NCBI GenBank assembly: GCA_013138865.1
Contig: WTBY01000018.1
Coordinates: 1-64,000, forward strand
DNA from: Helicobacteraceae bacterium
Lineage (GTDB): Bacteria; Campylobacterota; Campylobacteria; Campylobacterales; Sulfurimonadaceae
DNA: 64,000 nucleotides
Reading direction: 5' to 3'
Of this stretch, positions 6,848-53,780 are shown piece by piece. A program made the translations under genes and the position numbers. Within the stretch, counting starts at the first letter, position 1, and each line of letters opens with the position of its first letter. The notes beneath the pieces were generated by a model, which was not told the origin of the DNA, made no database searches, and was given only the letters and a program-made list of their open reading frames with translations.

Positions 6848-9171
6848 CTTAAGTTAAGTCCTAATTCATTTTTAAGTGCATCTAAAACACCACTCATAGA
6901 TGATGTAATATCATCTTCTTCAAGTGTTTTTTCACGTGATTGTAGTACAAAACGAAGTGTTAAACTAGAGCTATCACCTAATGTTTCATCTTCATACTTA
7001 TCAACTGGGTAAAAACGTACTAACTCTTTAGAACGACTACTCTCAATTACATCAGCAACACTTTTATAATTAATAGTACTAGGAAGAACTATACTTAAGT
7101 CTCTAAAAGATGTCTGAAATTTAGAGTACTCTTCAGCTTCAACACTCTCATATTTTAACTCAGAAAACTCCAACTCACAAAGGTAAGTAATATCTAGTCC
7201 AAGTTCGTCACAAACAGTTGGATGAACACGAAACATTTCACCTATAACTTTGCCATCTTGTATAACTTTTGCATTTTGAAAAGGGTGTGCCAACTTGTGT
7301 GAAGAGCTGTTTTCTAAAAACTCTACATCACCTATAACTGTTGCTATAGCTTGTGAGAAAGAGGCAAAGTCAATACTTTTAGGTTTACCTGCATTAGTAG
7401 TATTGTCAAGTTCAGACTCACCACTAAAAATAAAACTTGCTTTTGTAGACTCTTCTCTATTTTCATTAAAAACAGAACCTATCTCAAAAAGTTTGATCTG
7501 TTTTTTACCAGACTTAGCATTAAGTGAAGCACTGTCTAATAGGTTTAAAAGAATAGTAGGACGAAGAGTATCCATAGTGTTTACGATCGGATTAAGAATC
7601 TCTTTTTCTTTGTCTATACATTCAAAACCATACTTTTCAAGTTTTGCTCTCTCATTAAAAACAAAGTGAATAGATTCATCAAAACCGCTAAAAGCTGCAC
7701 GATGTCTGTATTCACGTCTTTTTTTATAAGTTGTATAATCATCATTAAAACGATTCTCTTCTGCAAATATAAATGGTTTTGACGTAATGTTATCAATACC
7801 AACCATACGAACAATCTCTTCAACTATATCTTGTCTATTTACTATGTCATGGCGGTAACGTGGGATCGAAATTACAAAACGATCAGCAGAAGACTTACCT
7901 ATATTAAAACCTAAATTTTGAAGAATTTGGTTAATTGTAGTTTTTTCTATATTCATACCAATAATAGAGTTAACATCTTCTAAAGAGATAGAAACAATAG
8001 GCTCAACATAAGAGTCACGGTGTTCTATATTTCCACTATACATCTTAACATCACAATATTTTTCAAGTAATTTTATACAGTAAGCGACACCTAACTCTAA
8101 ATATGGCTCACTACCACGTGAAGTTCTATAGTAAAGTGGTCCACTCTCTATTTTGTTTTCAAACATCTGCTTAGAGATAAGATCAGGTGCAATATAACTA
8201 GCCTCTAAGAAACATAATGAAGCAGTGTCTTTTATACGAGAATCATCTTCTTGTTTAATTCCAATAGTTGAAGCTTTAGAGTCTCCACTACATACACATG
8301 CGTAACCATTTTCATCTTTTTTAAGATCTATTTCCACTTTTGATTTATTACCAAAAAATGTACTATTATAGCCTCGTAAAACTACACCTGTTGCAACTGT
8401 TGCATAGTGTAAAATAGAGTCTATAGCACAACTTCTCTCATCTTCTATCTGTTTTAGACGTAGTTGCATAACTAGAGGTAATTGAACTTCATTTAACTCA
8501 AAAGCACGGTACTGTAAGTTAATATCCGCGTCATCAATAGTATTTAGTTGTAGAACACGACCTATACCAAGGCTTCTATCTTCTTCACCTAAGTCAACTT
8601 CATTTAGAGTTCTATTAAAAGCTGCTGAAATGTCACGACAAACACCTCTAATGCTTAAACAGTCACCTCTATTTGCTGTTAGTTCAATCTCTATTAAGTC
8701 ATCATTTAAGATCTTACATTTACTAAGCTCATAGCCTAGTTCTAAAGAGGTAACAGTCTCATCAAGAATCATAATTCCATCATTTAACTTAACTTGTCCG
8801 ATCTCAGTAGAAGAGCAGATCATACCTTCACTATCAATACCACGAAGTTTTACAGGCTTAATAGTTAAACTTTCACTCATTACAGCACCGATAGTAGCAA
8901 CAGGTACTTTAATACCTACTCTTACATTTGATGCACCACATACGATCTGTCTAATACCAGTTCCCACGTCAACTTTACATATATTTAGTTTGTCTGCATC
9001 AGGATGTTTTTCACACTCTATAACTTCACCAACTACTACACGTCCAGGAACTTTAAAACTCTCAACTCTATCAACTTCTAAACCTATAGCATTAAAAGTT
9101 TTACACAGTTCATCTGTTGTAATACCATCAAGGTTGATCCACTCGTTTAACCAGCTTCTAGTAACTATCAT
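6844..9171 (-). CDS. pheT: phenylalanyl-tRNA synthetase beta subunit
   Basis: Beta subunit of the alpha2-beta2 Phe-tRNA synthetase, providing tRNA binding and editing. The 775 residues begin with the EMAP/tRNA-binding OB domain ([20 protein letters not shown] region, residues about 45-150), followed by B3/B4 editing, B5, and a C-terminal ferredoxin-fold anticodon-binding domain ([13 protein letters not shown] onward). The domain order is complete. It overlaps pheS by 4 bases, coupling equal production of the two subunits. Confidence 0.96.
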
Positions 9172-31715: not shown

Positions 31716-32764
31716 GTATTTTTATAGCTCTTTTAGTTCTATCTATTTTAGTTTTCTTTCATGAACTAGGTCACTATAGTGCAGCTAAAGCTGTCGGAGT
31801 TCATGTTCAAGTATTTAGTATAGGTTTTGGTAAAAAAATATTCTCTTTCAAATGGCTAAATACAGAGTGGAAGTTTGCGATGATCCCACTAGGTGGCTAT
31901 GTAAAAATGAAAGGTCAAGAAGATCTTGATCCTGCAGCTCGTGACAACTCACAAGATAGCTACAATACTAAAACACCTATACAGAGAATTTTCATACTTT
32001 TAGCTGGTCCAGCCGCTAACTTTGTGCTAGCATTTTTTCTATACCTAGCAATCGGCATTGGTTCTCCTCAAGTTCTCTCTTCTGTGATCGGAGATGTTAA
32101 AGCAGACTCTCCCGCATATATTGCTGGACTTAAAGCAGACGACAGAATCGTTAAAATAGATGACCAACTTATAACTACTTGGAAAGGGATGGCTGAAGTT
32201 ATAAAAAATGCTAAAGGCTCACTAAATGTTATGGTTGAGAGAGGTAATCACTTAGAAGCTTTAGTTTTAACACCACAACTAACTGAGACTGAAAATATAT
32301 ACAAAGAAAAAGTTCAAAGAAAAATGATCGGTATTATGGCTAAAGGCGACTCACATAAATTAGAACTAAGCTTTTTTGATAGTATAGGCTACGCAAGTGA
32401 ACAAACCATAAATGCTTCTAAACTCATCTTTACAGGTTTACAGAAGCTCTTAAGTGGCGCTGTTCCAGCTAAGGAGTTAGGTGGTGTTGTAAGTATAGTA
32501 AAAGTTAGTGCCGATGCAAGTGAAGCTGGTTGGATGAGCCTCTTCTTTTTTGCTGCTCTAATATCTGTAAACTTAGGTGTGCTAAACCTGCTACCTATTC
32601 CTGCACTTGATGGTGGACATATAATGTTCAACCTATATGAACTTATAACAAAACGAATACCAAGTGAAGCCACGATCATAAGACTAACCATTATGGGTTG
32701 GGTCTTACTACTAGGACTTATGTTTTTAGGACTTTATAATGACATTAATAGGTTAATGGGTTAA
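31712..32764 (+). CDS. rseP: site-2 intramembrane zinc protease
   Basis: Cleaves membrane-bound anti-sigma factors or signal peptides within the bilayer. The 350 residues show HELGH in the first helix, a periplasmic PDZ domain (about residues 120-200) and the second active-site motif NLLPIPALDGG in the third helix. Its last codons (INRLMG stop) lie inside the left attachment repeat of the integrated element, and the same seven codons are repeated 20.2 kb away, so the gene was kept intact by the insertion. Confidence 0.95.
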   Translation: MSIFIALLVLSILVFFHELGHYSAAKAVGVHVQVFSIGFGKKIFSFKWLNTEWKFAMIPLGGYVKMKGQEDLDPAARDNSQDSYNTKTPIQRIFILLAGPAANFVLAFFLYLAIGIGSPQVLSSVIGDVKADSPAYIAGLKADDRIVKIDDQLITTWKGMAEVIKNAKGSLNVMVERGNHLEALVLTPQLTETENIYKEKVQRKMIGIMAKGDSHKLELSFFDSIGYASEQTINASKLIFTGLQKLLSGAVPAKELGGVVSIVKVSADASEAGWMSLFFFAALISVNLGVLNLLPIPALDGGHIMFNLYELITKRIPSEATIIRLTIMGWVLLLGLMFLGLYNDINRLMG

Positions 32765-32768
32765 TATA
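32744..32768 (+). repeat. left attachment repeat (attL)
   Basis: Overlaps the rseP stop codon. Matches 52979-53003 in 23 of 25 positions. Confidence 0.8.
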
Positions 32769-32770
32769 AT

Positions 32771-32870
32771 TACAACTAGCTACAACTACTTACAAACACC
32801 CATATATACAGGGGTTTATAAGCTTACTCTTAAATACAACTAGATACAATAAATTACAAATAACTACAAA
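32771..32870 (+). repeat. two helically phased TACAA arrays next to attL
   Basis: TACAA occurs at 32771, 32781 and 32791, then at 32835, 32845, 32855 and 32865: exactly 10 bases apart within each array. The first two copies of the left array share TACAACTA. Such phasing puts all copies on one face of the helix, as expected for cooperative binding of an integrase, excisionase or architectural protein. No gene lies here. Confidence 0.7.
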
Positions 32871-32915
32871 AATCCCTACTTTCTTAACCTTTTTTAGCAA
32901 AAAGTAGGGATTTTT
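32868..32915. terminator. long inverted repeat before the integrase gene
   Basis: AAAAATCCCTACT (32868-32880) and AGTAGGGATTTTT (32903-32915) form a perfect 13-bp stem with 22 bases between and a final T-run; it can end rseP transcription. A related pair (AAATCCCTAC / GTAGGGATTT) is found near the right end at 52882-52925. Confidence 0.65.
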
Positions 32916-32931: not shown

Positions 32932-34200
32932 ATGGGTGTTTCAGAGTATAAACCAGTAAAAATCAAACTCAACAATAGTTTAGCAGGTGGGATGTATATT
33001 CTTTTAACAGAAGATGAAATTAGATATACAAAAGACAACGAAACTAAACCACCTAATAGAATATATAAAATTCAGATAGCTGTAGAAGCTGTATATAAAA
33101 ACAAAAGATGTAGAGGTAAACAGTCATTTCAAATTCCAAAAGGAACCTCTATAGCAAAAGCGGTAAGTTCACTTCTAGGAAAAAGAGAAGAGATGAAAGA
33201 GACCCTTAAAGATAAAGGGACACTAAAAGATGAAAAGAAGGTTTTCAAAAAGATAGATTCTAAAGATAGAAAACTATCATCTATCTATGAAGCTTGGATT
33301 AGCGGAAAAAAAATAAACCAAAGTAAAAATACAATCCGTATATATGAAAGTTGCTATCACACACATCTGATTAAACTTCAAAATAAAATCATCGATGAAA
33401 TAAACGAAGATGATATTCAGAATCTCATAAACTCGATGATTAGTAAAGGAAGGTCTGCTTCAACTATTAATGTAGTAAAAATGGTTATGAAGCCTCTTTT
33501 AGAGATAAATGATGTACATCTAAACTGGAAGAAAATCATTTTACCTAAGAATGATAAGAAAAGAACTTTTAAAGGTAGTGATAAGGAAGCTAAACAAATC
33601 AGTAAAGCTCTTTTGGAATACAAACACCCTATTGCCAGAGGGATATTTGCATTTTTACTTAGTGGAAGAAGAATTGGTGAGACACTACAACTAGAATATA
33701 AACACATCAACTTTAAGAATGGTACTTTTACACTACCAAAAGAGATTACAAAAACTAAGACATCTCCTACTTATGTTCTAACTCCCCTACTCTTAAATGC
33801 TATCAAATCTCAAAAGACTACCAAAGGTAGAGTCTTTGATCTGAAGAGGGATGCTGCAAACTATCATTTTCATAAAGCAATGACTAGTATTAGTGTACAC
33901 AACATGGTTATGCATGACATTCGTTCAATGGTAGCGGTAGTATCCCTTAGAAATGGTGCAGACATTTATTCAGTAAGTAAAATGCTATCTCACAAGCTAT
34001 TAGCTACTACAGAAAAAGCATATCTTGGAGATGGTACGGAGAGAGCTATTGAAGCTCAGAATACATTTAATACTTTACTTGAAAAGCCTGATGAGATTAT
34101 TGATGTAGAGCTTGAAGATGATGAGTTTACTGCTCTTAAAAAGATATATCCTAATGCTAAAGATGAAAAGATATTTGAAATAATTGATATTATGAAATAA
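32932..34200 (+). CDS. int: tyrosine-type site-specific integrase
   Basis: Protein of 422 residues that should integrate and excise the element at rseP. N-terminal arm-binding part (about 1-110), SAM-like core-binding domain (about 125-200, with SKNTIRIYESCYHTHL), and the catalytic domain with Arg in SGRRIGET, HDIR as the HxxR box, His in LSHKLL and the nucleophile Tyr in TEKAYLG. All five active-site positions are present. A second integrase remnant lies directly downstream. Confidence 0.92.
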   Translation: MGVSEYKPVKIKLNNSLAGGMYILLTEDEIRYTKDNETKPPNRIYKIQIAVEAVYKNKRCRGKQSFQIPKGTSIAKAVSSLLGKREEMKETLKDKGTLKDEKKVFKKIDSKDRKLSSIYEAWISGKKINQSKNTIRIYESCYHTHLIKLQNKIIDEINEDDIQNLINSMISKGRSASTINVVKMVMKPLLEINDVHLNWKKIILPKNDKKRTFKGSDKEAKQISKALLEYKHPIARGIFAFLLSGRRIGETLQLEYKHINFKNGTFTLPKEITKTKTSPTYVLTPLLLNAIKSQKTTKGRVFDLKRDAANYHFHKAMTSISVHNMVMHDIRSMVAVVSLRNGADIYSVSKMLSHKLLATTEKAYLGDGTERAIEAQNTFNTLLEKPDEIIDVELEDDEFTALKKIYPNAKDEKIFEIIDIMK

Positions 34201-35440: not shown

Positions 35441-35508
35441 GTGTGATTATGCATTATAAAAGGTAGATTTTGATAGTCTATTGTAATCGAATTATCTATA
35501 GGAATTAT

Positions 35509-36471
35509 ATGGAAGAAAACATTAATGAAACTAGAGACTTATTAATAAAAGAGTGGTTCAATAATCCTTCATCAGAGTTGAATAGAGGAAACACTATTTT
35601 ACTTTTAGAGGATATTTTTGGAACTCTTGAAATCAGTCTAAGAAATTTTCTACCAAAGACAAGTGTTGTTAAACAAGAAGAATACAAAATTTTTGACATG
35701 CGAACAACGATGCGTTATGAAAGCATACAAAATTATCAAAAAGCAATAGTTATTATACCTGCGGACAAAAATAGCGAACAATTTCTTAATATAGATTTCA
35801 ATAAGTTATTGAGATCTAGCATATTACATGTACCAGCTGATCACACAGATTTTTATTCTAATATGGCGCACTATATCAATTCTCATACACCAAACTTAAA
35901 CCCTATAACAATTCCAAATAACGAGAGATACTTACACTTTATAGAAAAAGTTAATTTGCATGCTCTACTAATACAGAACAGAAACTTATTGTGGTTAAAT
36001 GAATATTTGAATTTTATGCACGATAGATTCTACAGACTTTGCAATCAAACAAATTGCATTTCTTTGCTAGTAAAAGGAACAACTTTTAAAGAAACTACAT
36101 ATACAACTGATGTGAAGAATGATATTAATTTGTTTATTACTGCTAATATACTAACTTCTAGGCTTGTTGTTCTTATATACAGAGTAGCTTCTTTAGATCC
36201 TAATGCGAACACAACCAAAATAGGAAGATATTTTCAAAGTAACTCAGGAAGTAAAAGTAAGGTCTTTAGTGCTAAGACCCATAAAGCGTTAGCTTATATC
36301 CCTGATTTGAAAGGCAAAAGTTTTAAAGCTTATGATTTAAATGTCAATGAAGCAGAAATAGCGATTAGACAAGAGATAGCAATGAATCTTCTATCTCTTG
36401 ATATAAACGAACTTGACGCTAAAGTGATTGCCAAAGTTACAGGCTATCCTAAAGGTGGATTAAAAACTTAA
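35509..36471 (+). CDS. unknown protein of the integrative element
   Basis: Protein of 320 residues; ATG at 35509 with AGGAATT upstream is preferred over a TTG at 35470. No membrane segment or known motif is seen. It begins with acidic helices, has a mixed alpha/beta middle and ends with VIAKVTGYPKGGLKT. A helical stretch of the second half (LFITANILTSRLVVLIYRVASLD) is hydrophobic but probably buried. No family recognised. Confidence 0.55.
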   Translation: MEENINETRDLLIKEWFNNPSSELNRGNTILLLEDIFGTLEISLRNFLPKTSVVKQEEYKIFDMRTTMRYESIQNYQKAIVIIPADKNSEQFLNIDFNKLLRSSILHVPADHTDFYSNMAHYINSHTPNLNPITIPNNERYLHFIEKVNLHALLIQNRNLLWLNEYLNFMHDRFYRLCNQTNCISLLVKGTTFKETTYTTDVKNDINLFITANILTSRLVVLIYRVASLDPNANTTKIGRYFQSNSGSKSKVFSAKTHKALAYIPDLKGKSFKAYDLNVNEAEIAIRQEIAMNLLSLDINELDAKVIAKVTGYPKGGLKT

Positions 36472-42405: not shown

Positions 42406-42422
42406 ACGAAATAATATTTCGT
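42406..42422. promoter_or_regulatory. predicted WYL operator 1 (ACGAAAT-AAT-ATTTCGT)
   Basis: A 17-bp palindrome located 10 bases before a -10-like TATAGT (42433-42438), so it covers the -35 region of the promoter of the operon at 42464. The same palindrome, differing only in the central bases, sits at the same distance from the -10 of the operon at 44844. Probable target of the WYL regulator encoded in between. Confidence 0.65.
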
Positions 42423-42463
42423 AATATTATTGTATAGTTTCTTTAAAATAAAAGGAATTGCTG

Positions 42464-43486
42464 ATGTCAATAAAAAATATAGAAAAGAAAGAATTTGTAT
42501 ATATAGGGTTACTTTCAATTGTAACGCTCTTAATTCCAGAAAATATAGTAAATTTGCTAGTGCTAATTTTTATAGCTTTATTATTAATAATAACTTTAAT
42601 AGTAGCTATAAATTCAAATATGAAAAATAAGCATCTTGAAATCATTTTGGAGATCCTTTTAATATTTACTCTTTTTAAAACCATGCTCAATCTTGCTGTG
42701 ACAAAGATTTTACTAATAAATTTATTTGAAAGTGCAAAAACTGGTAATACTATTATAGGTTTTGGAGATTTTATTATAGGAGACAAACTTCCCATCGCTT
42801 TAATAGTATTTGCAACTTTTATTCTTCTAAGCCATAGAATTATTACACAAGGTTCTACACTTTTTTCTTGGAAAAAGACTAGATTTCTAGTAAATATATC
42901 ACCTGATGAACATATGGCTATTGATTCTGAACTAAATGCAGGGGTGTTAAATAATGTAGAATCTCAAGAGCGTCGTAAAAAAATAAATAAAGATACAGAA
43001 CTTTATGAGACAATTGATGGGTTATCCAATTTTTTAAAATATGATACATTTTTTAATATTGCTTTTATATTAATATATATTATAGTAGGAACTTTTATAG
43101 GAATATTTCAATATGAGCATAGTCTTAACAAAAGTATAGAGATAATCTTAGATGTAGCAGTTGGTTATGGTTTTATTTTTCAATGCTTATCTTTTATTAA
43201 TTTCATAATTGCATTTTTAATTATAATTCATATATCGAAAAAATATAGAAACTCTCTTGAAAATCTTTTGGATAAAAAAATTATGAAAGAATTGATGATT
43301 TATTTTAAGTTGATGATATTGGTTAGTTTCATAATTATTTTTATTGCATATATTTACAACCTTGAAGCTATGTCAATATCTCTTATAGGTATTTGTTTAA
43401 TATGTAGTGGATATTATTTATACATATTAAGTTTAAAGCTTCTTACAATTGAGGGCTATAAGCATATAAACTCTATGCTATCATGA
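42464..43486 (+). CDS. polytopic membrane protein, first gene of the WYL-controlled cluster
   Basis: Protein of 340 residues with about seven to eight hydrophobic helices: two in the first 60 residues, two around 85-135, two around 195-260 and two in the last 60. Between lies a polar stretch (about 140-190) with RRKKINKDTELYETI. No family recognised. ATG at 42464 follows AAAAGGAATTG. Start of an operon with the YkvA and WYL genes and a predicted operator in its promoter. Confidence 0.65.
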   Translation: MSIKNIEKKEFVYIGLLSIVTLLIPENIVNLLVLIFIALLLIITLIVAINSNMKNKHLEIILEILLIFTLFKTMLNLAVTKILLINLFESAKTGNTIIGFGDFIIGDKLPIALIVFATFILLSHRIITQGSTLFSWKKTRFLVNISPDEHMAIDSELNAGVLNNVESQERRKKINKDTELYETIDGLSNFLKYDTFFNIAFILIYIIVGTFIGIFQYEHSLNKSIEIILDVAVGYGFIFQCLSFINFIIAFLIIIHISKKYRNSLENLLDKKIMKELMIYFKLMILVSFIIIFIAYIYNLEAMSISLIGICLICSGYYLYILSLKLLTIEGYKHINSMLS

Positions 43487-43526
43487 TACAATACATCTAA
43501 CAAATGAACTGTGTGGATAAAAACTA

Positions 43527-43877
43527 ATGAGTGAAATAAATAATGAGCAACAAGATAAGTCAAAAGCATTACGAGACTCATTAGCAAAAGATTTTAATGA
43601 AAAAGAAGCTGAAGAGTTTGCTTCAATACATCAAAGTAAACGATGGTATGATGATTTTATGCTTTTATACGAGATGATTACATCAAAAGATTATGAAATA
43701 ACAACTAAAACAAAACTCATTATTGCAGGAACGCTCACTTATGTAGTTCTTCCAATGGATGTAATTCCTGACTTCATACCTATTGTTGGATGGCTAGATG
43801 ATATATTTATTTTAGGCTTGGCAACAAGTACGCTACATAATGAAATTGAAAATTTTAAGATATTTAGAGATGCTTAA
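43527..43877 (+). CDS. YkvA-family (DUF1232) membrane protein
   Basis: Protein of 116 residues. The DUF1232 core is clear: TKLIIAGTLTYVVLPMDVIPDFIPIVGWLDDIFILGL (in parts), with the amphipathic PMDVIPDFIP hinge and WLDD. Preceded by a charged helical domain. DUF1232 proteins are membrane-associated and occur in stress and resistance settings. Stop overlaps the WYL start by one base (TAATG). Confidence 0.85.
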   Translation: MSEINNEQQDKSKALRDSLAKDFNEKEAEEFASIHQSKRWYDDFMLLYEMITSKDYEITTKTKLIIAGTLTYVVLPMDVIPDFIPIVGWLDDIFILGLATSTLHNEIENFKIFRDA

Positions 43878-44776
43878 TGTATGATGATACAACAATAGAA
43901 AAAGTAACTAAGTTATTTTTTAAAGGTGGTAAATATACAACAAAAGCTCTAGCTATAAGGTTTAACAAGACTACAAGAAATATACAATATATTATAAAAG
44001 AGTTACAAGCAAAAGCTGGTTTAGAAAAAGAGGGTACAAGTTACTACATACCTGATAAATTTCGTAATTTAGAAATATATGAAAGAGTACACATGAGTAC
44101 TTCATTAATGCTCTCTTTATATAAACATGCCATACCAAACCCACAAATTAGTGTGCAAGAAAATTTTAAAGAACTACCCAAAGAGACAGATATTTTTATA
44201 TTTGATATAAACTTTGAAGAGATTAAAAATGAGACTTTTTTTAACCAAATAGCAAATGCAATTATAAATAATGTAGCAATTAAATTTGAGTACAAAAATA
44301 AAAGAGATATAGTTTCAATAAAAAATGTATACCCAATTAAAATTACTAACCTACTAGGCTATTGGTATCTTATGAGCTATGACTTAGAAGATGAAAAGGT
44401 AAAAACATTTTATTTAAATACCATTACTAACTTATCAACACTAGATGAAAGTTATCTTGATGAAAAAAAGATGAAAAAGTTACAACTAGAGTCTTCTCAA
44501 ATGAAATCCCCATGGTACTGTGATAATATAAAAAATGTAGAGTTAAAAGTAACAGGAGATGCTATACTTTATATCCAACGACAAAATAGTGATGTGTTTG
44601 AAATTATTAATGATGAAGACTCTTTTGCAATATTTATTAATATGAAGTACTATAATGATGTTGAAGTTTTAAGCTTTGTTAAAAAATGGCTCCCTTTTAT
44701 ATATATAGTTAATAATGAACCTTTACAGCAAAAACTAGAAGAAACTTTTCTAACTTACTCTAAAAACAACAATTAA
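43877..44776 (+). CDS. WYL-domain transcriptional regulator
   Basis: Protein of 299 residues: N-terminal HTH (about 1-65, KYTTKALAIRFNKTTRNIQYII), a WYL domain (about 130-200 with FEYKNKRDIVSIKNVYPIKITNLLGYWYLMSYD in parts), and a C-terminal WCX-like part (KNVELKVTGDAILYIQRQ, VLSFVKKWLPFIYIVNN). WYL domains sense nucleic-acid-like ligands. WYL regulators (BrxR/CapW group) commonly silence phage defence loci. Two matching palindromes flank its operon. Confidence 0.9.
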   Translation: MYDDTTIEKVTKLFFKGGKYTTKALAIRFNKTTRNIQYIIKELQAKAGLEKEGTSYYIPDKFRNLEIYERVHMSTSLMLSLYKHAIPNPQISVQENFKELPKETDIFIFDINFEEIKNETFFNQIANAIINNVAIKFEYKNKRDIVSIKNVYPIKITNLLGYWYLMSYDLEDEKVKTFYLNTITNLSTLDESYLDEKKMKKLQLESSQMKSPWYCDNIKNVELKVTGDAILYIQRQNSDVFEIINDEDSFAIFINMKYYNDVEVLSFVKKWLPFIYIVNNEPLQQKLEETFLTYSKNNN

Positions 44777-44807
44777 CTTAAAAACGAAATATTATTTCGT
44801 TTTTAAG
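44777..44807. promoter_or_regulatory. predicted WYL operator 2 within a 14-bp hairpin
   Basis: The palindrome ACGAAAT-ATT-ATTTCGT (44784-44800) sits inside a longer perfect stem: CTTAAAAACGAAAT (44777-44790) and ATTTCGTTTTTAAG (44794-44807). It follows the WYL stop and ends 10 bases before TACAAT (44811-44816), a -10 box for the operon at 44844. It may serve as both operator and terminator. Confidence 0.65.
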
Positions 44808-44843
44808 TGCTACAATACTCTTATAACTTAATAGGAGTAACTA

Positions 44844-45632
44844 ATGAGTAAACTTACACAAGAACAACATAGTGAAATAAGTGCTTATATAGAGACTATA
44901 AATACAAAAATCACACAAACCAAATCTAAAAGTATGCATCAGCTTTGTACATCAGGATTAGAGTTTTTACAAAACTTTGAAGTGAAGTATAAAAGCAATG
45001 CTAACAGGCTTGATAATGCTAAGAATAGGCTAGACGATGAAAATAGTAGTATTGCGTGTATGCTAATAGCAAGTGTTAAAGATATGGGATCAATAATATC
45101 TTCTGGTGTTAAAGATATGGGATCAATAATATCTTCTGGTGTTAAAGATATAGGCTCTATTATTAAAGAAGATGGATTAGGTATTAAGCAATATATAGAG
45201 ATTGAAGAGCAAGCATTTTCAGAAATGGATCAATTTATAAAAAGGTTTAGTGCGAGGTATCCTTTATCAGAGACAATTGATGTTACAAAAGATATATCTA
45301 TATCACTTAAAAAAATAGAAGATGAAAAAAAATATGAATGTTACTATACAACTCTTTCTAATTTAAAGAATGAGATAGAACATATAGAAAATGTATTAAA
45401 AAAGAGTGAGCCTATCTATTTTAGTTTAACAAAAATAAATTCTAAATTAGCTCTTATTAACACAAATGTATCACTATTAAGTGTATATGATACTGTAACA
45501 TATAGCCATGTTCAAGAGTTAGAAGATGAAGTTGTATTAAGTACAAAAAACTTGATAAGCAATACTAAGCAATTTGATAATTCTGTAGCACAATTAGTAC
45601 CTATAAGCATCAACGATGTTTATAGTAATTAA
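44844..45632 (+). CDS. coiled-coil protein with VKDMGSIISSG repeats
   Basis: Protein of 262 residues, mostly helical coiled coil. A central segment at residues about 78-110 consists of a repeated 11-residue unit, VKDMGSIISSG twice and a variant VKDIGSIIKED, reflecting two perfect 33-bp DNA copies (45075-45107, 45108-45140) and a diverged third. The units may form an amphipathic membrane-binding helix. No family recognised. First gene of the second operon of the cluster. Confidence 0.65.
   Translation: MSKLTQEQHSEISAYIETINTKITQTKSKSMHQLCTSGLEFLQNFEVKYKSNANRLDNAKNRLDDENSSIACMLIASVKDMGSIISSGVKDMGSIISSGVKDIGSIIKEDGLGIKQYIEIEEQAFSEMDQFIKRFSARYPLSETIDVTKDISISLKKIEDEKKYECYYTTLSNLKNEIEHIENVLKKSEPIYFSLTKINSKLALINTNVSLLSVYDTVTYSHVQELEDEVVLSTKNLISNTKQFDNSVAQLVPISINDVYSN
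45075..45140 (+). repeat. 33-bp tandem repeat in coding sequence, two perfect copies
   Basis: The copies are identical, with a diverged third from 45141. Being in frame, they can change in number without frameshift, altering the length of the repeat in the protein. Confidence 0.85.
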
Positions 45633-45643
45633 GGAGAAGTAAA

Positions 45644-46474
45644 ATGATACCATTAATAGTAGGTGGAGTTGCATTAACTGCAATTGGCTATAGCATGAGT
45701 AAATCATGTCAAAAGCATAAAGAGAAGGTTAAGTTAAAAGATGAGTTAAGAGATATAAATATCAAAGAGTATTTTCACACAACTGCTAAAAGTGAAGCAG
45801 AAGAAAATAGTAATATTTTTGATACTCTTCATAAGAGAAAAAAAGAACTCTTTTCAAATGGTGTTAAAAAGCTTGATGGAGTAATTTCTGATATAAAAAA
45901 CTCAGGACTTGACTCAATACCAACGAAGCAAATGGCAGTAGATGCCAAGCAATCTAATGGAGTTATTAGTAAAGAAGAAGCGAAAGCTCTTCGTATAGAG
46001 ATATTTCATGAAGCGGTTTTTTATCAGACACTAGAAAATATAGATAGTGGTGTAGTAACATTTAAAAATGAAGCTAAAATTAACAATATAGTTACAAAAA
46101 AGTTAGCAACTGAAATAGCAAAAAGCGTAGATGAAATGTTAGCAAAAGCAGAAATTATGTTGAATATCTACATAACAGAGGTAAGGAACATAGTTGTTGA
46201 AAATAGAGACTTTAACAGCTATGACGAGAAAAATAAAAGAGCTGTTATAAAAGCTTATGAGCTTGCAAACAACATTATGACACTTAGTTCAACACAAATA
46301 CTCAATTTAGATGGTGCTATAAATTCAAACATTATAAAAGAGATACATAACATGAATCTTATTTATGAAAATTTTGGTTCAGAAGATAATGTTGATGAAA
46401 AAAAATACAAAGAGCCTATTAATATAGATAGGACAAGTACTTATGAGCTTAACGATATTATTTTAACAAACTGA
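45644..46474 (+). CDS. N-terminally membrane-anchored helical protein
   Basis: Protein of 276 residues with one short N-terminal hydrophobic helix (IPLIVGGVALTAIGYSM), then a basic segment (KSCQKHKEKVKLKDE) and a long helical domain. Fold and size resemble proteins encoded next to TerB-like or dynamin-like genes, without a definite match. Shares an operon with the coiled-coil protein, 11 bases apart with AAGGAGAAG. Confidence 0.6.
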   Translation: MIPLIVGGVALTAIGYSMSKSCQKHKEKVKLKDELRDINIKEYFHTTAKSEAEENSNIFDTLHKRKKELFSNGVKKLDGVISDIKNSGLDSIPTKQMAVDAKQSNGVISKEEAKALRIEIFHEAVFYQTLENIDSGVVTFKNEAKINNIVTKKLATEIAKSVDEMLAKAEIMLNIYITEVRNIVVENRDFNSYDEKNKRAVIKAYELANNIMTLSSTQILNLDGAINSNIIKEIHNMNLIYENFGSEDNVDEKKYKEPINIDRTSTYELNDIILTN

Positions 46475-46482
46475 TATAAAGT

Positions 46483-46716
46483 TTACTCTTTTAAAAATTC
46501 ACAAAGTTCTATTTCAAGGATTTGTGATATTTTTAATAGATGTTCAAGGTTGAAATGCGTGCCGTTATAGTAAATTTCGGCACCAGAGATAACAGAAACA
46601 GATTTATAGCCCATTTGCAGAGATAGGTCGAGTTGAGACAAGTTTTTTTCTTTTCTAAACTTAGCTACATTCTTCCCAATGAGTACATAAAAATGTTCTG
46701 GTGAAATTTTGTTCAT
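46483..46716 (-). CDS. XRE/Cro-type helix-turn-helix regulator
   Basis: Protein of 77 residues. LIGKNVAKFRKEKNLSQLDLSLQMGYKSVSVIS (in parts) is the HTH_XRE fold; the C-terminal helices LEHLLKISQILEIELCEFLKE are typical. Transcribed against the cluster, diverging from the TerB-like gene at 46862, whose promoter it probably controls. The cluster thus has a second regulator in addition to the WYL protein. Confidence 0.88.
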   Translation of the reverse strand: MNKISPEHFYVLIGKNVAKFRKEKNLSQLDLSLQMGYKSVSVISGAEIYYNGTHFNLEHLLKISQILEIELCEFLKE

Positions 46717-46861
46717 AAGATAAACGCCCTATTGTTATAGATTATAGTTGGCTAAGTTTATCTGCTGTACAATGCTTTATCAATCTGTATAAATACAATG
46801 TACTATAATAGAGTATAAGAATTAATAGATTGATTAAATTAATAATAAAAGGAAATAAAAA

Positions 46862-47503
46862 ATGATAAGTCCATGGAAAATGTTAGGTGGAGTAGCGGTA
46901 GGTGTAGGTGCTGTTGCAGCAGCACCATTTACAGGAGGTGGTTCACTTCTAGCAGGATCTACAGTATTAGCTTCTTTAGCAGGTGCTGGTACTGTTGCTG
47001 CGGCTGTTGGTGTAGGTGCAGTAGGAGCAGGTATAGGAGCAAAACTTTCTCATGATGAAGAACAAGAAAAGCAAAAACTAGAAGATGCTATAGCAAAACA
47101 AGCAGCACAAACTAAACAGGCAGAACAAGCTTTAAATGATATGATTCCTAAGTTCACATCTCAAGAGGATTATTTTAACTTAGTAAAAGCTATGACGGCA
47201 GTAGGAATAGCTTGTGCAAATTGTGATGGTGAAATAGTTGAAGCAGAAAGAGCAGACATAGATGAATTTATTAGTGGTCTTTCTGGTGCTAATTTACCAG
47301 ATTATGTTAAAAAAGATATTGAGTACATGTACGCAAATCCTCCAAGATTAAGATTAGCATTTGATATGGTTAAAAAAGTACCATCAGAATCATTTGATTT
47401 TTTTGATCAAATAGTTGATATTACTATTAGTTCAGATAATGTAGAGCATGAAAAAGAAAAAGAATTTAAACAAGACTGGGAACAGCTTAAAAGAATGTCA
47501 TAA
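46862..47503 (+). CDS. glycine-zipper/TerB-like fusion protein
   Basis: Protein of 213 residues. The N-terminal 55 residues are a Gly/Ala/Val-rich zipper (GGVAVGVGAVAAAPFTGGGS, GAGTVAAAVGVGAVGAGIGA), typical of membrane-inserting helices. A Gln/Lys/Ala coiled coil follows (about 60-95), then a TerB-like domain (about 100-210: FNLVKAMTAVGIACANCDGE, EAERADIDEFISGLSG). TerB-like domains are linked to tellurite resistance and phage-related stress responses. RBS AAAAGGAAAT. Its gene diverges from the XRE regulator. Confidence 0.75.
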   Translation: MISPWKMLGGVAVGVGAVAAAPFTGGGSLLAGSTVLASLAGAGTVAAAVGVGAVGAGIGAKLSHDEEQEKQKLEDAIAKQAAQTKQAEQALNDMIPKFTSQEDYFNLVKAMTAVGIACANCDGEIVEAERADIDEFISGLSGANLPDYVKKDIEYMYANPPRLRLAFDMVKKVPSESFDFFDQIVDITISSDNVEHEKEKEFKQDWEQLKRMS

Positions 47504-47590
47504 ATTATTTTGTAGCCTTTGTGCTACGAATAATTTAATACTAAAAATATGGTTTTGAGTATTAAGTTATTATGTTTACTGGAGAGAGAT

Positions 47591-49234
47591 ATGAACGATA
47601 AAATAGCAAAATATAAGAATAGGAAAAAAATTGTGGCTGATAATATTTACATATCAAGAAAAATACCAAACAATGATGAAGACACTGAATATATCAACAA
47701 AATGATACAAAATGATACATATGATTATGACTTTACAGTAACTCCTGAAGAGGCAAAAGACTTCCTAATACAATTTAAAAAAGAGTTCAACGATGAAAGA
47801 TTTAATAAGCTTGTAAATGATTGTAAAAAAGAAGTTATAAGTTCTATTGTAACTCCATTTGGACTAGGTCAAGTTGTCGCAGCTTATGATAAAACAGGTG
47901 GGAATGTTGATACTATTCATAATGTTAGAAATGTAGACAAAACTGGAATTGGTATGAGCGAAGAGGAATCCTTGCAAAATGGGATGGGCATATATGCTAC
48001 AGAAGAAGCTAAACAAAACCATGAGAATAAAGAAGAGTATAGTTCTAAAGATTATCATGACAATAATCCAGAATACTCAAAAACAAGAGAAGCTAATACA
48101 AAGCTTAAAGAAGATAGTGTACTTATCGATGGCTATACAGGTCAAACTTTTGATGAAGGCACCAAAGATCAAGTAGAACATATAATAGCAGCAAAAGAAG
48201 TTGATGATGATACAGGTAGAGTACTTGCTAATGTAGATGGTAGTGAGTTAGCTAATAGAGGTAGTAATCTTACGGCAACATCACAAAGTGTCAATGGCTC
48301 AAAGCAAGAGGATTCTGCTCCTAATTTTTTAAAAAGAGTTGCAAAAAATAAAGAAAAAATACAAAACCTTGAAGCCAAACAAAACTTAACTCCTGAAGAA
48401 GAAAAAGGACTAGCCAGATTAAAAAGAGTAACACAAGTTGATGAAGATGAAGTAAAAAAGTTAGATAAAAAAGCTAGAAATGAATACAATAAAGAAATAA
48501 ATAAGGCATATTATACCAGCAAAAAATTTGTAAAAAATACTATAGCAACAGGTGGAAAAGAAGGTGCTAAAATGGGTATGCAACAAGCACTAGGACTTAT
48601 TATAACTGAGTTTTTCACTGCTATATTTGATGAAATTTTAGATATATACAAAAATGGTTTTACACATGGTTTTGATGATGATAGATTTTTTAGTGTCTTA
48701 AAAGATAGGTTAAATAAAATCTCAAAAAGGGTAAGTGCTAAGTGGAAAGATGCCGCTATAGCTTTTAAAGATGGCTTTATATCAGGATTTATATCAAATT
48801 TAGCAACTACTGTTATTAATATGTTTATAACAACTGGAAAAAGAGTTGTTAGGATTATAAGAGAAGGAGTGTTCTCATTATTTAAAGCGGTGAAATTACT
48901 TACATTTCCACCTGAAGGTATGAGCTATGAAGATGCTATGCATGAGGCTAAAAAATTAATTGCTAGTGGATTAATTGTTACCTTAGGTGTAATCGCCGAA
49001 GAGTATATAGATAAGCTAATAAGAAGCACTGTTATTTTAGAACCTTTTGCTGATGTTATTACAGCTGTATTTGTTGGTGCTATCACTGGTCTATCAATTA
49101 CAATGGTAGTTTATTATATTGAAAAAAATAAAAATGATAAAGATGCTATACAATTATTAATGACTCAAACTGATGAAAAAGTTGAGAATATTGAACAGAT
49201 GTTGATTCCACTGAGACAACCAATAAGCTCATAG
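47591..49234 (+). CDS. putative HNH nuclease fused to a hydrophobic C-terminal domain
   Basis: Protein of 547 residues from the ATG at 47591 (GGAGAGAG upstream); an ATG at 47549 has none. The centre has an HNH-type signature: DGYTGQTFDEG, QVEHIIAAKEVDDDTGRVLA with His at about 197, SNLTATSQSVNGSK with Asn at about 226 and 235. The C-terminal half has Gly-rich and hydrophobic helices (IATGGKEGAKMGMQQALGLI, IVTLGVIAEEYID, VITAVFVGAITGLSITMVVYY) able to insert in membranes. Nuclease activity is inferred from the motif only. Confidence 0.6.
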   Translation: MNDKIAKYKNRKKIVADNIYISRKIPNNDEDTEYINKMIQNDTYDYDFTVTPEEAKDFLIQFKKEFNDERFNKLVNDCKKEVISSIVTPFGLGQVVAAYDKTGGNVDTIHNVRNVDKTGIGMSEEESLQNGMGIYATEEAKQNHENKEEYSSKDYHDNNPEYSKTREANTKLKEDSVLIDGYTGQTFDEGTKDQVEHIIAAKEVDDDTGRVLANVDGSELANRGSNLTATSQSVNGSKQEDSAPNFLKRVAKNKEKIQNLEAKQNLTPEEEKGLARLKRVTQVDEDEVKKLDKKARNEYNKEINKAYYTSKKFVKNTIATGGKEGAKMGMQQALGLIITEFFTAIFDEILDIYKNGFTHGFDDDRFFSVLKDRLNKISKRVSAKWKDAAIAFKDGFISGFISNLATTVINMFITTGKRVVRIIREGVFSLFKAVKLLTFPPEGMSYEDAMHEAKKLIASGLIVTLGVIAEEYIDKLIRSTVILEPFADVITAVFVGAITGLSITMVVYYIEKNKNDKDAIQLLMTQTDEKVENIEQMLIPLRQPISS

Positions 49235-49250
49235 TTTATTAAGACAATTT

Positions 49251-51374
49251 ATGACCTACGAACTATATAAGATACTAGAGAGACCAGAAGCATCAAAGTT
49301 TGGTGCTTTAGTTCAAAAAATTATCCTAATAAATATCCTAATAAATATTTTTGTTGTACTTATTACAGAATCTTTTACACTAACGAACAATATATTAAAT
49401 ATTTTTATTTTAGTCGAAAATTTTACAGTACTTATCTTTATGGTAGAGTTATTTACTAGGTATATAGTTATTGGCTACAATGAACAGTATAAAGGTTTAA
49501 AAGGCAGAATAAAATTTACTTTTACATTTTATACAATTATTGATATTTTATCCATTATTCCATATTTTATAGTAGGTACTTCTTCAGGTACTTTACTATT
49601 AAGAATTGTTAGATTTCTTCGGTTTTTAAGAATTTTAAAGCTTGTGAGAATGAAAAAAGTACTCGAAAAGTTTTTTAATTTAGGGTCATTTGCTACATCA
49701 AATATTTTTACTCAAATAATGATTTTATTTGTTCTTGGTATAGTATTTATCTTTATTTTTGGATTTGCTTACAAATCGCAAGATACTAGTATAATGATCT
49801 TTTTAGAACCATCTGCAATAGCAGAATCTGATAACTCATCAGAGCTTCTTTTTGGTATTTTGGAATTATTAATTGGCTTGTTGATAGGTGGTGCTTTTAT
49901 CTCAATTATAACTGAAGCACTAGTTAATATTACGCAAACTGTTAAAAATGGGTATTACCCTTTTAAGGGAACTGGGCATATACTTATTATAAACCAAAAT
50001 ATTAAGTTAAAATATATTTTAGAAGAAATTAATAGCTATTACCTTAGTGCAGAACAGATGCAAGATGTTGTTATATTTTTGCCGTTTGTTAAAGATATAG
50101 ATAGTATTAAACAAAATATTAAAAGTTATTCTAATCTTGATATTAAACTAATTTCTGGAGATATTTTAAATTTTAATTCTTATACGAGAGTAAATATTAA
50201 TGGAGCTAAAAAAGTTCTTATTCTTAAGAATAATGATACTGACACACAAAATTTAAATGCAAAAACATCAAGGTACATATTAACAAATAATAATTTTAAT
50301 AATCCAGACTTGGAGTTTATTATAGAAGCTCAAGAAGGAAAAAATATTAAATACATCTATGAGCAAATATTTAGTGATGTTGATAATAAATATACTTTAG
50401 TAGAACATAACATTATTATACAAAAATTTTTAAATCGATCAATTATAGAACCAAATTATTTTAAAATATATTCTAGTATCTTATCGTTCAATGGGTATGG
50501 ATTGTACAAAATTCAAGCTAATAAAATATACAAAGATAGTTTAAGTTTTAAAGAAGCCTATATGCAACTTAATAATGGAATATTAATAGGAATAAGAAAA
50601 AAGAAAAAATTACTTTTAAACCCTGATGATAATACTATAATATATCCGGAAGATACACTTGTAGTAATTCTTAAAAATGAAGTGACATATACAATTGACA
50701 ACAATCAGATAGATTTGAATATATCTGTCGATATTGAGAAGCTATATTTACAAACTTCAAGAAATGTATGTATAGTGGGTAACTATGATACTATTAATAA
50801 AAAAAGTATTACTCACTTTTTGGATAAAAAAAGTTCTCAAAACTTAGATACTATAGTTTTAAAAAATAATGAGTATATGGATATAGCAATTTGGGATAAG
50901 ATAATCGAAAAAAACTATGATACTATTATTTTAAACCTTGAAGATAATGATGAGTTTTTATTAACAATGTATCTAAGAAATATTTACAAAGATAATCAAT
51001 CTTTTTTAAATTCAATTGTCAATATCATACATGACCCTACTATTTACAAACTATTAGAAAATAAAAATAATTATGACAATATTATACTATCAGAAAAACT
51101 AGTTAGTGTTTATATGTCAGTAGTTATGTTTAATAAAGATGTTGTAGATATTTTTGATGAGCTTTCAGAGTCTAAAGGAAATGAGTTTTACCTACTAGAA
51201 TCTAATAAATATAAAACACTAATAGGTTTAGAGAAACAAAAAATTAAATATGCATTAAAACAAAATAATATGATTTTCATAGGTACAATTGAAGATAAAA
51301 AATTTATAATAAATAGCAAAACAGTAAAAGAAAATTCAAAAATAGTTGTGCTTGCACTTGGAGTGACAGAATAA
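49251..51374 (+). CDS. voltage-sensor ion channel with two RCK domains
   Basis: Membrane protein of 707 residues. S1-S3 helices fill residues 20-110; S4 has a basic residue at every third position (Arg118, 121, 124, 127, Lys130, Arg133, in LRIVRFLRFLRILKLVRMKK). A pore hairpin follows (about 155-225), but the selectivity filter lacks TVGYG, as in CASTOR/POLLUX channels. The C-terminus holds two TrkA-N/RCK domains (GTGHILIINQN at about 240; second from about 485, NVCIVGNYDT). No clear ribosome binding site. Likely gated by ligand and voltage. Confidence 0.75.
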   Translation: MTYELYKILERPEASKFGALVQKIILINILINIFVVLITESFTLTNNILNIFILVENFTVLIFMVELFTRYIVIGYNEQYKGLKGRIKFTFTFYTIIDILSIIPYFIVGTSSGTLLLRIVRFLRFLRILKLVRMKKVLEKFFNLGSFATSNIFTQIMILFVLGIVFIFIFGFAYKSQDTSIMIFLEPSAIAESDNSSELLFGILELLIGLLIGGAFISIITEALVNITQTVKNGYYPFKGTGHILIINQNIKLKYILEEINSYYLSAEQMQDVVIFLPFVKDIDSIKQNIKSYSNLDIKLISGDILNFNSYTRVNINGAKKVLILKNNDTDTQNLNAKTSRYILTNNNFNNPDLEFIIEAQEGKNIKYIYEQIFSDVDNKYTLVEHNIIIQKFLNRSIIEPNYFKIYSSILSFNGYGLYKIQANKIYKDSLSFKEAYMQLNNGILIGIRKKKKLLLNPDDNTIIYPEDTLVVILKNEVTYTIDNNQIDLNISVDIEKLYLQTSRNVCIVGNYDTINKKSITHFLDKKSSQNLDTIVLKNNEYMDIAIWDKIIEKNYDTIILNLEDNDEFLLTMYLRNIYKDNQSFLNSIVNIIHDPTIYKLLENKNNYDNIILSEKLVSVYMSVVMFNKDVVDIFDELSESKGNEFYLLESNKYKTLIGLEKQKIKYALKQNNMIFIGTIEDKKFIINSKTVKENSKIVVLALGVTE

Positions 51375-52282: not shown

Positions 52283-52588
52283 ATGAAATTTGATTGTTTA
52301 GATATAGAAACTATTGTTGGATTTGAATGGGATGAGGGAAATATCCATAAAAATGAAAACAAACATGGTCTAAAGTGGACGGCAATTGAAGAAGTTTTTT
52401 TTAATGAACCATTACTAATTGTAGAGGACTTTAAGCACTCTGTGAATGAGTGCAGATGTGTAGCTTTAGGTAAAAATGATTTTGATGATTTAGTCACTGT
52501 AGTTTTTACAATAAGAGATAAACACATTAGAGTTATATCAGCAAGAGCTATGAGTAAAAAGGAAAGGATGATTTATGAAAGATCTTAA
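52283..52588 (+). CDS. brnT: BrnT-family toxin
   Basis: RNase toxin of 101 residues: VGFEWDEGNIHKNENKHGL, IEEVFFNEPLLIVED, VVFTIRDKHIRVISARAMSKKER are the BrnT hallmarks. It halts translation by RNA cleavage. The antitoxin gene brnA follows, overlapping by 14 bases; toxin-first order is usual for this system. Confidence 0.9.
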   Translation: MKFDCLDIETIVGFEWDEGNIHKNENKHGLKWTAIEEVFFNEPLLIVEDFKHSVNECRCVALGKNDFDDLVTVVFTIRDKHIRVISARAMSKKERMIYERS

Positions 52589-52838
52589 ACAACTGCCTGA
52601 ATTTAAAAATGAATCAGAAGAAGCTACATTTTGGGATGAGCATGATGTAACAGATTATTTTGATATGCAAAAAGCCAAACCAGTTAGATTCTCTAATCTA
52701 AAGAAAACAACAAAAAGTATATCGTTACGTTTACCTGTTGATATGATAGAAGAGTTAAAAGTAAAAGCAAATGCTATGGATGTACCTTATCAATCATTAA
52801 TTAAAATATTTTTAACTAATGCTCTGAAAACAGCCTAA
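52575..52838 (+). CDS. brnA: BrnA-family (CopG-like) antitoxin
   Basis: Antitoxin of 87 residues. EATFWDEHDVTDYFD in the N-terminal half binds BrnT in known pairs, and SISLRLPVDMIEELKVKANAMDVPYQSLI (in parts) is a ribbon-helix-helix that represses the operon. Last gene of the element before its right end. Confidence 0.9.
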   Translation: MKDLKQLPEFKNESEEATFWDEHDVTDYFDMQKAKPVRFSNLKKTTKSISLRLPVDMIEELKVKANAMDVPYQSLIKIFLTNALKTA

Positions 52839-52978
52839 GTTTATTTTGCTAATATTTTATAAAGATTATGTAAAATTAAAAAAATCCCTACCAACTACTA
52901 AAAAATACCAAAAAAGTAGGGATTTATAAATCTATAAAAAGCCCTTATACAAGTAAATATAGAGATTTTATAGCAAAT

Positions 52979-53003
52979 ATTAATAGGTTGATGGGCTAAT
53001 ATA
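52979..53003 (+). repeat. right attachment repeat (attR)
   Basis: Matches the left repeat at 23 of 25 positions and carries the rseP end codons INRLMG plus stop again, with no rseP sequence upstream. Confidence 0.8.
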
Positions 53004-53033
53004 TTTATAAATTAGATTTCTGAAAAAATTGTT

Positions 53034-53056: not shown

Positions 53057-53168
53057 ATAAACCTTGTTTTCAACTCAACCGTTATAATAAAAATTTAATT
53101 TTCACTTTAATACCAAATTAAATCTAAATTTGATACTATATATTGTTTTAATTAAAAAGGTGAATTAC

Positions 53169-53441
53169 ATGTATTTAAGTCAAGATATAAAACCAATTAG
53201 TTACTTAAAAGCAAAAACAGCTGATGTAATAAACAATGTAAATCAAAATCAAAGAGCAATAATCATAACACAAAATGGTGAAGCAAAAGCAGTTGTGCAA
53301 GATATTAAAAGTTATGAGAATTTACAAAATTCCTTAAATTTATTAAAATTAATTGTTCAAAGTGAAAATGATATTGAAAATAATAATATCACAGAACAAG
53401 AAGAAATGTTTAAAACTCTCGAACAAAAATTATTTAGATAA
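53169..53441 (+). CDS. Phd/YefM-type antitoxin
   Basis: Antitoxin of 90 residues; ATG at 53169 with AAAAGGTG upstream is preferred to one at 53130. YLSQDIKPISYLKAKTADVINNVNQ, AIIITQNGEAKAVVQDI is the Phd/YefM fold (in parts), with a C-terminal toxin-binding helix (EEMFKTLEQKLF). Toxin gene follows 6 bases later. Confidence 0.85.
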   Translation: MYLSQDIKPISYLKAKTADVINNVNQNQRAIIITQNGEAKAVVQDIKSYENLQNSLNLLKLIVQSENDIENNNITEQEEMFKTLEQKLFR

Positions 53442-53447
53442 AATCAA

Positions 53448-53780
53448 ATGAAACAATTTGAAGTTATATGGACTAAAAATGCTGAGTTTGACTTAGAGTT
53501 AATTATTGAATATATTAAAACAAATAGTTTTGATACAGCAAAAAAAATATTTTTTGCTTTAAAAGAAGAATGTAAGAGTTTATATTGTTTCCCCCAAAGA
53601 AAAAAAATTGTACCTGAATTACAACAAATTGGTATTTTAAAATACCGAGAAATTATCCATAAGAGATGGAGAATAATATACAAAATTGACAATACAAAAG
53701 TTTATATTTTATTGGTAATAGACTCAAGTAGAAATTTAGAGGATATATTATTTCAAAGATTAATTAATAAAAAAGTATAA
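53448..53780 (+). CDS. RelE/ParE-superfamily toxin
   Basis: Basic protein of 110 residues. VIWTKNAEFDLELIIEYIKTN, then LKYREIIHKRWRIIYKI and VYILLVIDSSRN give the ParE-like pattern (IIEYI, YREIxxxRxRIIYxI). Toxin of the third type II pair with a RelE/ParE fold in the window. Confidence 0.85.
   Translation: MKQFEVIWTKNAEFDLELIIEYIKTNSFDTAKKIFFALKEECKSLYCFPQRKKIVPELQQIGILKYREIIHKRWRIIYKIDNTKVYILLVIDSSRNLEDILFQRLINKKV

Follow-up and report, generated by a model that had tools for sequence, protein, structure and literature searches.

A mobile PDC-M40B gene cluster with FlhA-derived parts in a member of the Campylobacterota, a candidate membrane-centred anti-phage module

The window analysed here is a stretch of 64,000 nucleotides from a Campylobacterota genome of 3.03 Mb in 82 contigs. 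Within it, a 20.2-kb integrative element is inserted at the 3' end of rseP and houses the nine genes g1 to g9. A first-pass annotation had placed nine consecutive reading frames at 42406-51374 inside a mobile element. All nine are open at those positions, and the mobile setting is borne out by an integrase at 32932 and by 32-nt end repeats. The region starts at 42406, exactly where a perfect palindrome in the g1 promoter begins. Three transcription units can be distinguished, g1-g3, g4-g5 and g7-g9, with g6 running divergently. The assignments made earlier for g2 (YkvA/DUF1232), g3 (WYL regulator), g6 (XRE regulator) and g9 (voltage-sensor RCK channel) all agree with the domain matches given below.

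32744-32775, no strand: left end repeat (attL-like), overlapping the rseP 3' end
32932-34200, forward: tyrosine integrase of the element (Pfam Phage_integrase E 5e-10; PHROG integrase 4e-36)
42406-42422, no strand: palindrome ACGAAATAATATTTCGT in the promoter of g1-g2-g3, probable operator of the WYL regulator
42464-43486, forward: g1, stand-alone FlhA/SctV transmembrane domain (Pfam FHIPEP E 1e-41)
43527-43877, forward: g2, small YkvA/DUF1232 protein (Pfam E 2e-14; PHROG_14750 2e-16)
43877-44776, forward: g3, WYL-domain regulator (Pfam WYL 2e-9; PADLOC WYL 7e-15)
44784-44800, no strand: second palindrome ACGAAATATTATTTCGT in the g4-g5 promoter, inside an inverted repeat with 15-bp arms
44844-45632, forward: g4, helical/coiled-coil protein with three 11-aa repeats (33-nt repeats at 45073-45163)
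45644-46474, forward: g5, N-terminally membrane-anchored partner, PDC-M09A-like, with an FHIPEP insert at residues 88-133
46483-46716, reverse: g6, XRE regulator, divergent from g7-g9 (HTH_3 3e-6)
46862-47503, forward: g7, glycine-rich membrane segment and TerB-like domain, directly upstream of g8
47591-49234, forward: g8, PDC-M40B protein, HNH-like domain and hydrophobic helical C-terminus (PADLOC E 5.7e-74)
49251-51374, forward: g9, ion channel with a voltage sensor and RCK domains of CASTOR/POLLUX type, starting 17 bp after g8
52979-53010, no strand: right end repeat (attR-like), pairing with the left repeat

The two end repeats form an imperfect direct repeat (32 nt, 88%). Besides the integrase, Pfam and PHROG scans of the element gave a recombinase, a RecD/PIF1-like helicase, a DUF932 protein and Gam-like and Rad52-like proteins; a 333-aa protein at 35470-36471 had no match in either collection. 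Just inside both ends lies a 46-nt inverted repeat (78%; arms 32870-32915 and 52880-52925), each arm of which holds a GTAGGGATTT hairpin; these are possibly integrase arm sites or terminators. By eye, a BrnT/BrnA-like pair is seen within the right end of the element (52283-52838) and a RelB/ParE-like pair just beyond it (53130-53780). In several related genomes a yggS-like gene stands directly 3' of rseP. Since a relative of the present cluster fills the gap between rseP and yggS in a Sulfurimonas MAG (L087), the insertion site appears to be a hotspot.

The centre of the cluster is g8. Its frame opens at 47549, and homologues favour ATG 47591 as the start. The PADLOC profile PDC-M40B, a family predicted computationally as candidate defence, aligns with 449 residues; no further PDC-M40 component was matched by the other cluster genes. 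Pfam gave a GmrSD_C/HNH match only, below threshold. In an alignment of 54 sequences, H110, N111, R113, H197, D207, N226, N235 and R424 are invariant. The AlphaFold model shows a strand-strand-helix arrangement around H197 and N235 (pLDDT about 95 over residues 140-310), with H197 at a strand end and N235 in the helix after the following strand, as in HNH nucleases. These conserved H/N residues and the HNH-like geometry of the model make homology of g8 to HNH nucleases likely. A Foldseek search with the model returned no solved nuclease and no useful solved structure, and on the viral side its only good match was the relative in Aeromonas phage LAh10. The C-terminal half consists of long conserved helices with one clear hydrophobic stretch. 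In L196, L198, L199 and in plasmid and phage records, 'cobalamin adenosyltransferase' is a frequent label of g8 relatives and 'chemotaxis protein' of their PDC-M09A partners; neither label has domain support in the proteins scanned. A cobalamin adenosyltransferase identity for g8 was rejected, as neither Pfam nor NCBIfam supports it.

Relatives of g8 are present in 20 of the 298 genomes of the class, in 72 plasmid records, in 375 of 5,426 E. coli genomes and in Aeromonas jumbo phages. They span five phyla (Campylobacterota, Pseudomonadota, Bacillota, Spirochaetota and Bacteroidota), the nearest named ones belonging to Sulfurimonas, Sulfurovum and Helicobacteraceae MAGs. Within 2.5 kb of the g8 relative, 81 of 84 loci, drawn from these phyla, plasmids and jumbo phages, hold a recurring partner (glycine-zipper, TerB, JukA, CxxCxxCC, or WYL/XRE); the set derives from one pattern search and a few plasmid and phage records and is not phylogenetically independent, so the counts show linkage, not frequency. 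At that distance a PDC-M09A-like glycine-zipper gene, usually adjacent, is found in 61 of the 84 loci, a CxxCxxCC (YkgJ-type) protein in 49, a WYL regulator in 38, a TerB-type protein in up to 30, JukA in 12 and XRE in 6. Among the other 820 reading frames of these loci, such partner families are nearly missing.

JukA is the sensor of Juk, a system whose effectors vary (PMC13282480). At L083 and L098-L102, chiefly in enterobacteria, the gene directly upstream of M40B encodes a JukA-like protein, in most cases with a TerB-like match, and M40B may be an undescribed Juk effector. The cluster in the window differs from Juk in that it has no JukA match and g8 is not JukB by PADLOC profile; the two would share a membrane-directed action on early infection, which for the present module is a proposal. 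In the Aeromonas jumbo phages LAh10 and D3, an M09A-M40B pair is carried (L086 5962-7536 and L195 2971-4545; verified in LAh10, judged in D3 by identical layout). This phage-borne pair may exclude competing phages. Word matches to TerB, WYL and HNH in a jumbo-phage survey (PMC7824862) do not concern the pair. The phage-borne relatives, together with the location of the cluster on an element and the position of its regulators beside putatively toxic genes, could also speak for a system of toxin-antitoxin type that works for the element itself, by maintenance or exclusion. Such a role is unlikely, as g8 has no small antitoxin-like partner and its relatives also occur in chromosomal islands with other defence genes.

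The defence context proposed at first pass finds support in the neighbours of g8 relatives, which include type I restriction, MADS, Mza and SspE/HEC-06 genes (counted without a control set) and an AbpA gene. One E. coli relative adjoins terB, terC and terD. The latter, the TerB-like domain in g7 and its relatives, and the channel and membrane proteins of the cluster would fit a ter-like chemical or envelope stress response in place of phage defence. This alternative is rather improbable: TerC, TerD, TerF, TelA and TerY were unmatched by Pfam among the element proteins scanned, and JukA and defence-gene neighbours, an HNH-like core and presence on plasmids and jumbo phages argue against it.

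The arrangement in the window, or most of it, recurs in four other Campylobacterota. Three of them (L026, L087, L089) hold g5-like, g7-like, g8 and WYL genes together, and the fourth (L090) a WYL gene, a TerB fusion and g8. The latter, an Arcobacteraceae MAG, encodes directly upstream of M40B a 776-aa fusion (6582-8912) made of a long N-terminal part without Pfam match and a glycine-rich/TerB unit. Thus the parts of the first-pass cluster do occur together elsewhere, with g5, g7, g8 and a WYL gene recurring as a linked unit. Profile comparison aligns g5 with PDC-M09A (prob 94.6), a family also found near most g8 relatives; g5 differs in having no glycine-zipper core, at whose place the FHIPEP segment stands. 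The g7 product matches Pfam DUF533 at 4e-5, under the curated cut-off, and one of its homologues passes the TerB cut-off; Foldseek with the g7 model gave no useful solved structure. In Campylobacterota, Vibrio, Pseudomonas and Sideroxydans, a g7 homologue is the gene immediately before the g8 relative. With the zipper core lacking from g5, and a glycine-rich segment and TerB-like domain sitting separately in g7, the same ingredients appear to be split differently between proteins.

The conservation does not extend to all nine genes, which had been taken as one system. With the exception of one chromosomal flhA, the M40B loci examined showed no linked relatives of g1, g2, g4 or g9, and the part of these genes in the module therefore rests on one genome. 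For g4 no significant family was found in Pfam, and profile comparison showed no relationship to PDC-M09A or to a coiled-coil protein of another locus (L043). The g9 channel has Ion_trans (4e-8), Castor_Poll_mid (5e-9) and Slo-like RCK (2e-8) matches in Pfam and matches KCNQ and CASTOR in the PDB; among 59 related genomes it gave one weak match, and by eye there is no TVGYG-like motif between its last two helices. The statement that no named system has this content also needs revision, as g8 belongs to a PADLOC candidate family whose members elsewhere pair with JukA or PDC-M09A. The module resembles PDC-M40B in the g8 profile match and in linkage to helical membrane partners, and differs in g1, g2, g4 and g9, not known with PDC-M40B elsewhere. 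The cluster is a known kind of module with additions, rather than one new system. In the literature searched, which included few preprints and subscription papers, no phage-protection or toxicity data for any member and no other name for the module were found; such a name may exist.

Among the additions, g1 had been described as a polytopic membrane protein. It is a membrane protein, and its origin from FlhA (FHIPEP E 1e-41) had been overlooked. The frame opens at TTG 42458, with a better ribosome site at ATG 42464. The product comprises the whole FlhA membrane domain including the FHIPEP loop, with a hydropathy that fits eight helices, and a PDB search matched FlhA/SctV. It matches NCBIfam FlhA at 4e-43 (profile positions 11-309 of 678) and ends at profile position 294-309 of 657-678, without the cytoplasmic domain. 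Identity is 27% to the host FlhA, 27-31% to Campylobacterota FlhA and 22-24% to other FlhA/SctV, among which g1 forms a very long branch. Functional residues were compared with Salmonella FlhA as listed in PMC13308203 and PMC8179193. R154, D199, D208 and Q254 are kept and R85 and R94 are changed to K, whereas N137S, R147L, D158N, K203N and D249Y are substitutions; 6 of 11 pathway residues are thus kept or conservatively changed and 5 of 11 are lost. With D208 kept and both arginines replaced by lysine, a K-D pair could still provide the central salt bridge, while the inner ring of charges is largely gone. H+ and Na+ pass through the membrane domain of FlhA, which becomes leaky when D208 is changed to alanine (PMC8179193, PMC13308203). 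Assembly of the FlhA ring normally takes place on the export gate (PMC13308203); export-gate genes are absent near g1. It is very unlikely that g1 is a decaying flhA fragment. Its C-terminal part is missing and some essential residues are changed, but the frame is intact over about 340 codons at such low identity to the host FlhA, and all eight helices, the ribosome site and the promoter palindrome are kept.

A second FlhA-derived piece lies in g5. The earlier description as a membrane-anchored protein holds for the anchor and missed the FHIPEP segment, a 46-residue match to the FHIPEP loop at residues 88-133 (Pfam E 1.3e-8). The g5 homologues in L026, L087 and L089 lack this segment. PHROG matched it to phrog_12657, which is itself FlhA-fragment-like. 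The segment is identical to the host FlhA at 20 of 43 positions vs 11 of 43 to g1, which suggests a separate capture. This nearness to the host FlhA, the ring-forming domain in g1 and the presence of FlhA and a flagellin-like gene in the genome would also fit an action of g5 and g1 on the host FlhA, in which they join or block the export ring and stop motility or cause a proton leak during infection. That idea is quite unlikely: with no more than 27% identity between g1 and the host FlhA, it is doubtful that the two would form mixed rings. A peptide pattern for g1 found no relatives in 84,980 genomes or in IMG/VR; the class-wide matches listed are flagellar FlhA, with the one short frame (G066) explained by a frameshift in FlhA. 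No second FlhA-bearing M40B locus was found, and the arrangement is known from one genome. The full FlhA gene near the M40B locus of L089 was rejected as a source of the capture: flhA of G066 is followed by a similar neighbour, which marks the L089 gene as the chromosomal flhA, and the capture is unexplained by it. What is new here, and most unusual in the cluster, is the presence of a complete FlhA membrane domain as g1 and of an FHIPEP insert in the conserved partner g5.

Regulation ties these pieces to the module. The palindrome is perfect, 17 bp long, and ends about 41 bp before the g1 ATG and about 43 bp before the g4 ATG. These are its only two copies in the 3.03-Mb genome (up to one mismatch), against about 0.003 expected from base composition, and both lie in the element. 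Since the g1-g3 and g4-g5 promoters have this genome-unique sequence in common, the FlhA-derived genes seem to share their regulation with the module. WYL control, as proposed at first pass, is predicted from these operator-like palindromes on two promoters. BrxR, a WYL repressor, controls its island via two such boxes (PMC9122601). The g3 protein resembles BrxR/CapW-type regulators in its WYL domain and in the paired inverted-repeat boxes, one of them on its own operon; the target genes differ, and by Pfam and PADLOC the cluster has no BREX or CBASS core genes. The palindrome was not found upstream of g7-g9. XRE genes related to g6 are found at M40B loci upstream of the g8 relative in a Helicobacter and a Lachnospiraceae MAG. 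It is tentatively possible that the system consists of g5, g7, g8 and the regulators only, with g1-g2 and g9 as passengers and the FHIPEP segment of g5 as a neutral recombination scar. The lack of g1, g2, g4 and g9 relatives at other M40B loci and the empty peptide-pattern search for g1, with only flagellar FlhA among the class matches, favour such a minimal set, whereas the shared palindrome and the presence of two separate FlhA-derived pieces in one regulon count against it.

With moderate confidence, the cluster is probably a regulated, membrane-centred anti-phage module of the PDC-M40 kind, of abortive-infection type, carried by an element and locally extended with FlhA-derived parts. A defence function is suggested by the PADLOC family, the JukA pairing, the known-defence neighbours and the mobility. 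In the proposed mechanism, g3 would repress the g1-g3 and g4-g5 promoters via the common palindrome and g6 would control g7-g9, until infection or a nucleotide or DNA-damage signal relieves this control. The membrane-anchored partners g5 and g7, which occupy the place taken elsewhere by PDC-M09A or JukA, would sense early stages of infection at the membrane and bring g8 into action. The hydrophobic C-terminus of g8 would then insert in the membrane, where its HNH-like domain would cut DNA. The killing through membrane permeation and DNA cleavage suggested at first pass is hypothetical. In this lineage, g1, as a ring-forming FlhA ion-channel domain without export partners, would add loss of membrane potential, to which the channel g9 possibly contributes, and the FHIPEP segment of g5 may dock on or gate g1. 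Counted against this reading are the lost g1 residues and the normal assembly of the FlhA ring on the export gate, the g8 model without a solved-nuclease match, the lack of the palindrome before g7-g9, the status of PDC-M40B as a computational candidate only, and the single-genome basis of g1, g2, g4 and g9.

The M40B module is widespread in five bacterial phyla, on plasmids, in jumbo phages and in many E. coli genomes, and, given the misleading annotations of its members, it has easily escaped notice. That it pairs with JukA points to a general response to early infection at the level of the membrane. Reuse of a flagellar ion-conducting part in defence has a precedent in Zorya, whose ZorAB is MotAB-like; its protein family and gene set are unrelated to those of the window. 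If g1 and g5 work with the module, they would represent a second flagellar ion-conducting part turned immune effector, after the MotAB-like part of Zorya, and would allow ion conduction by FlhA to be studied separately from protein export.
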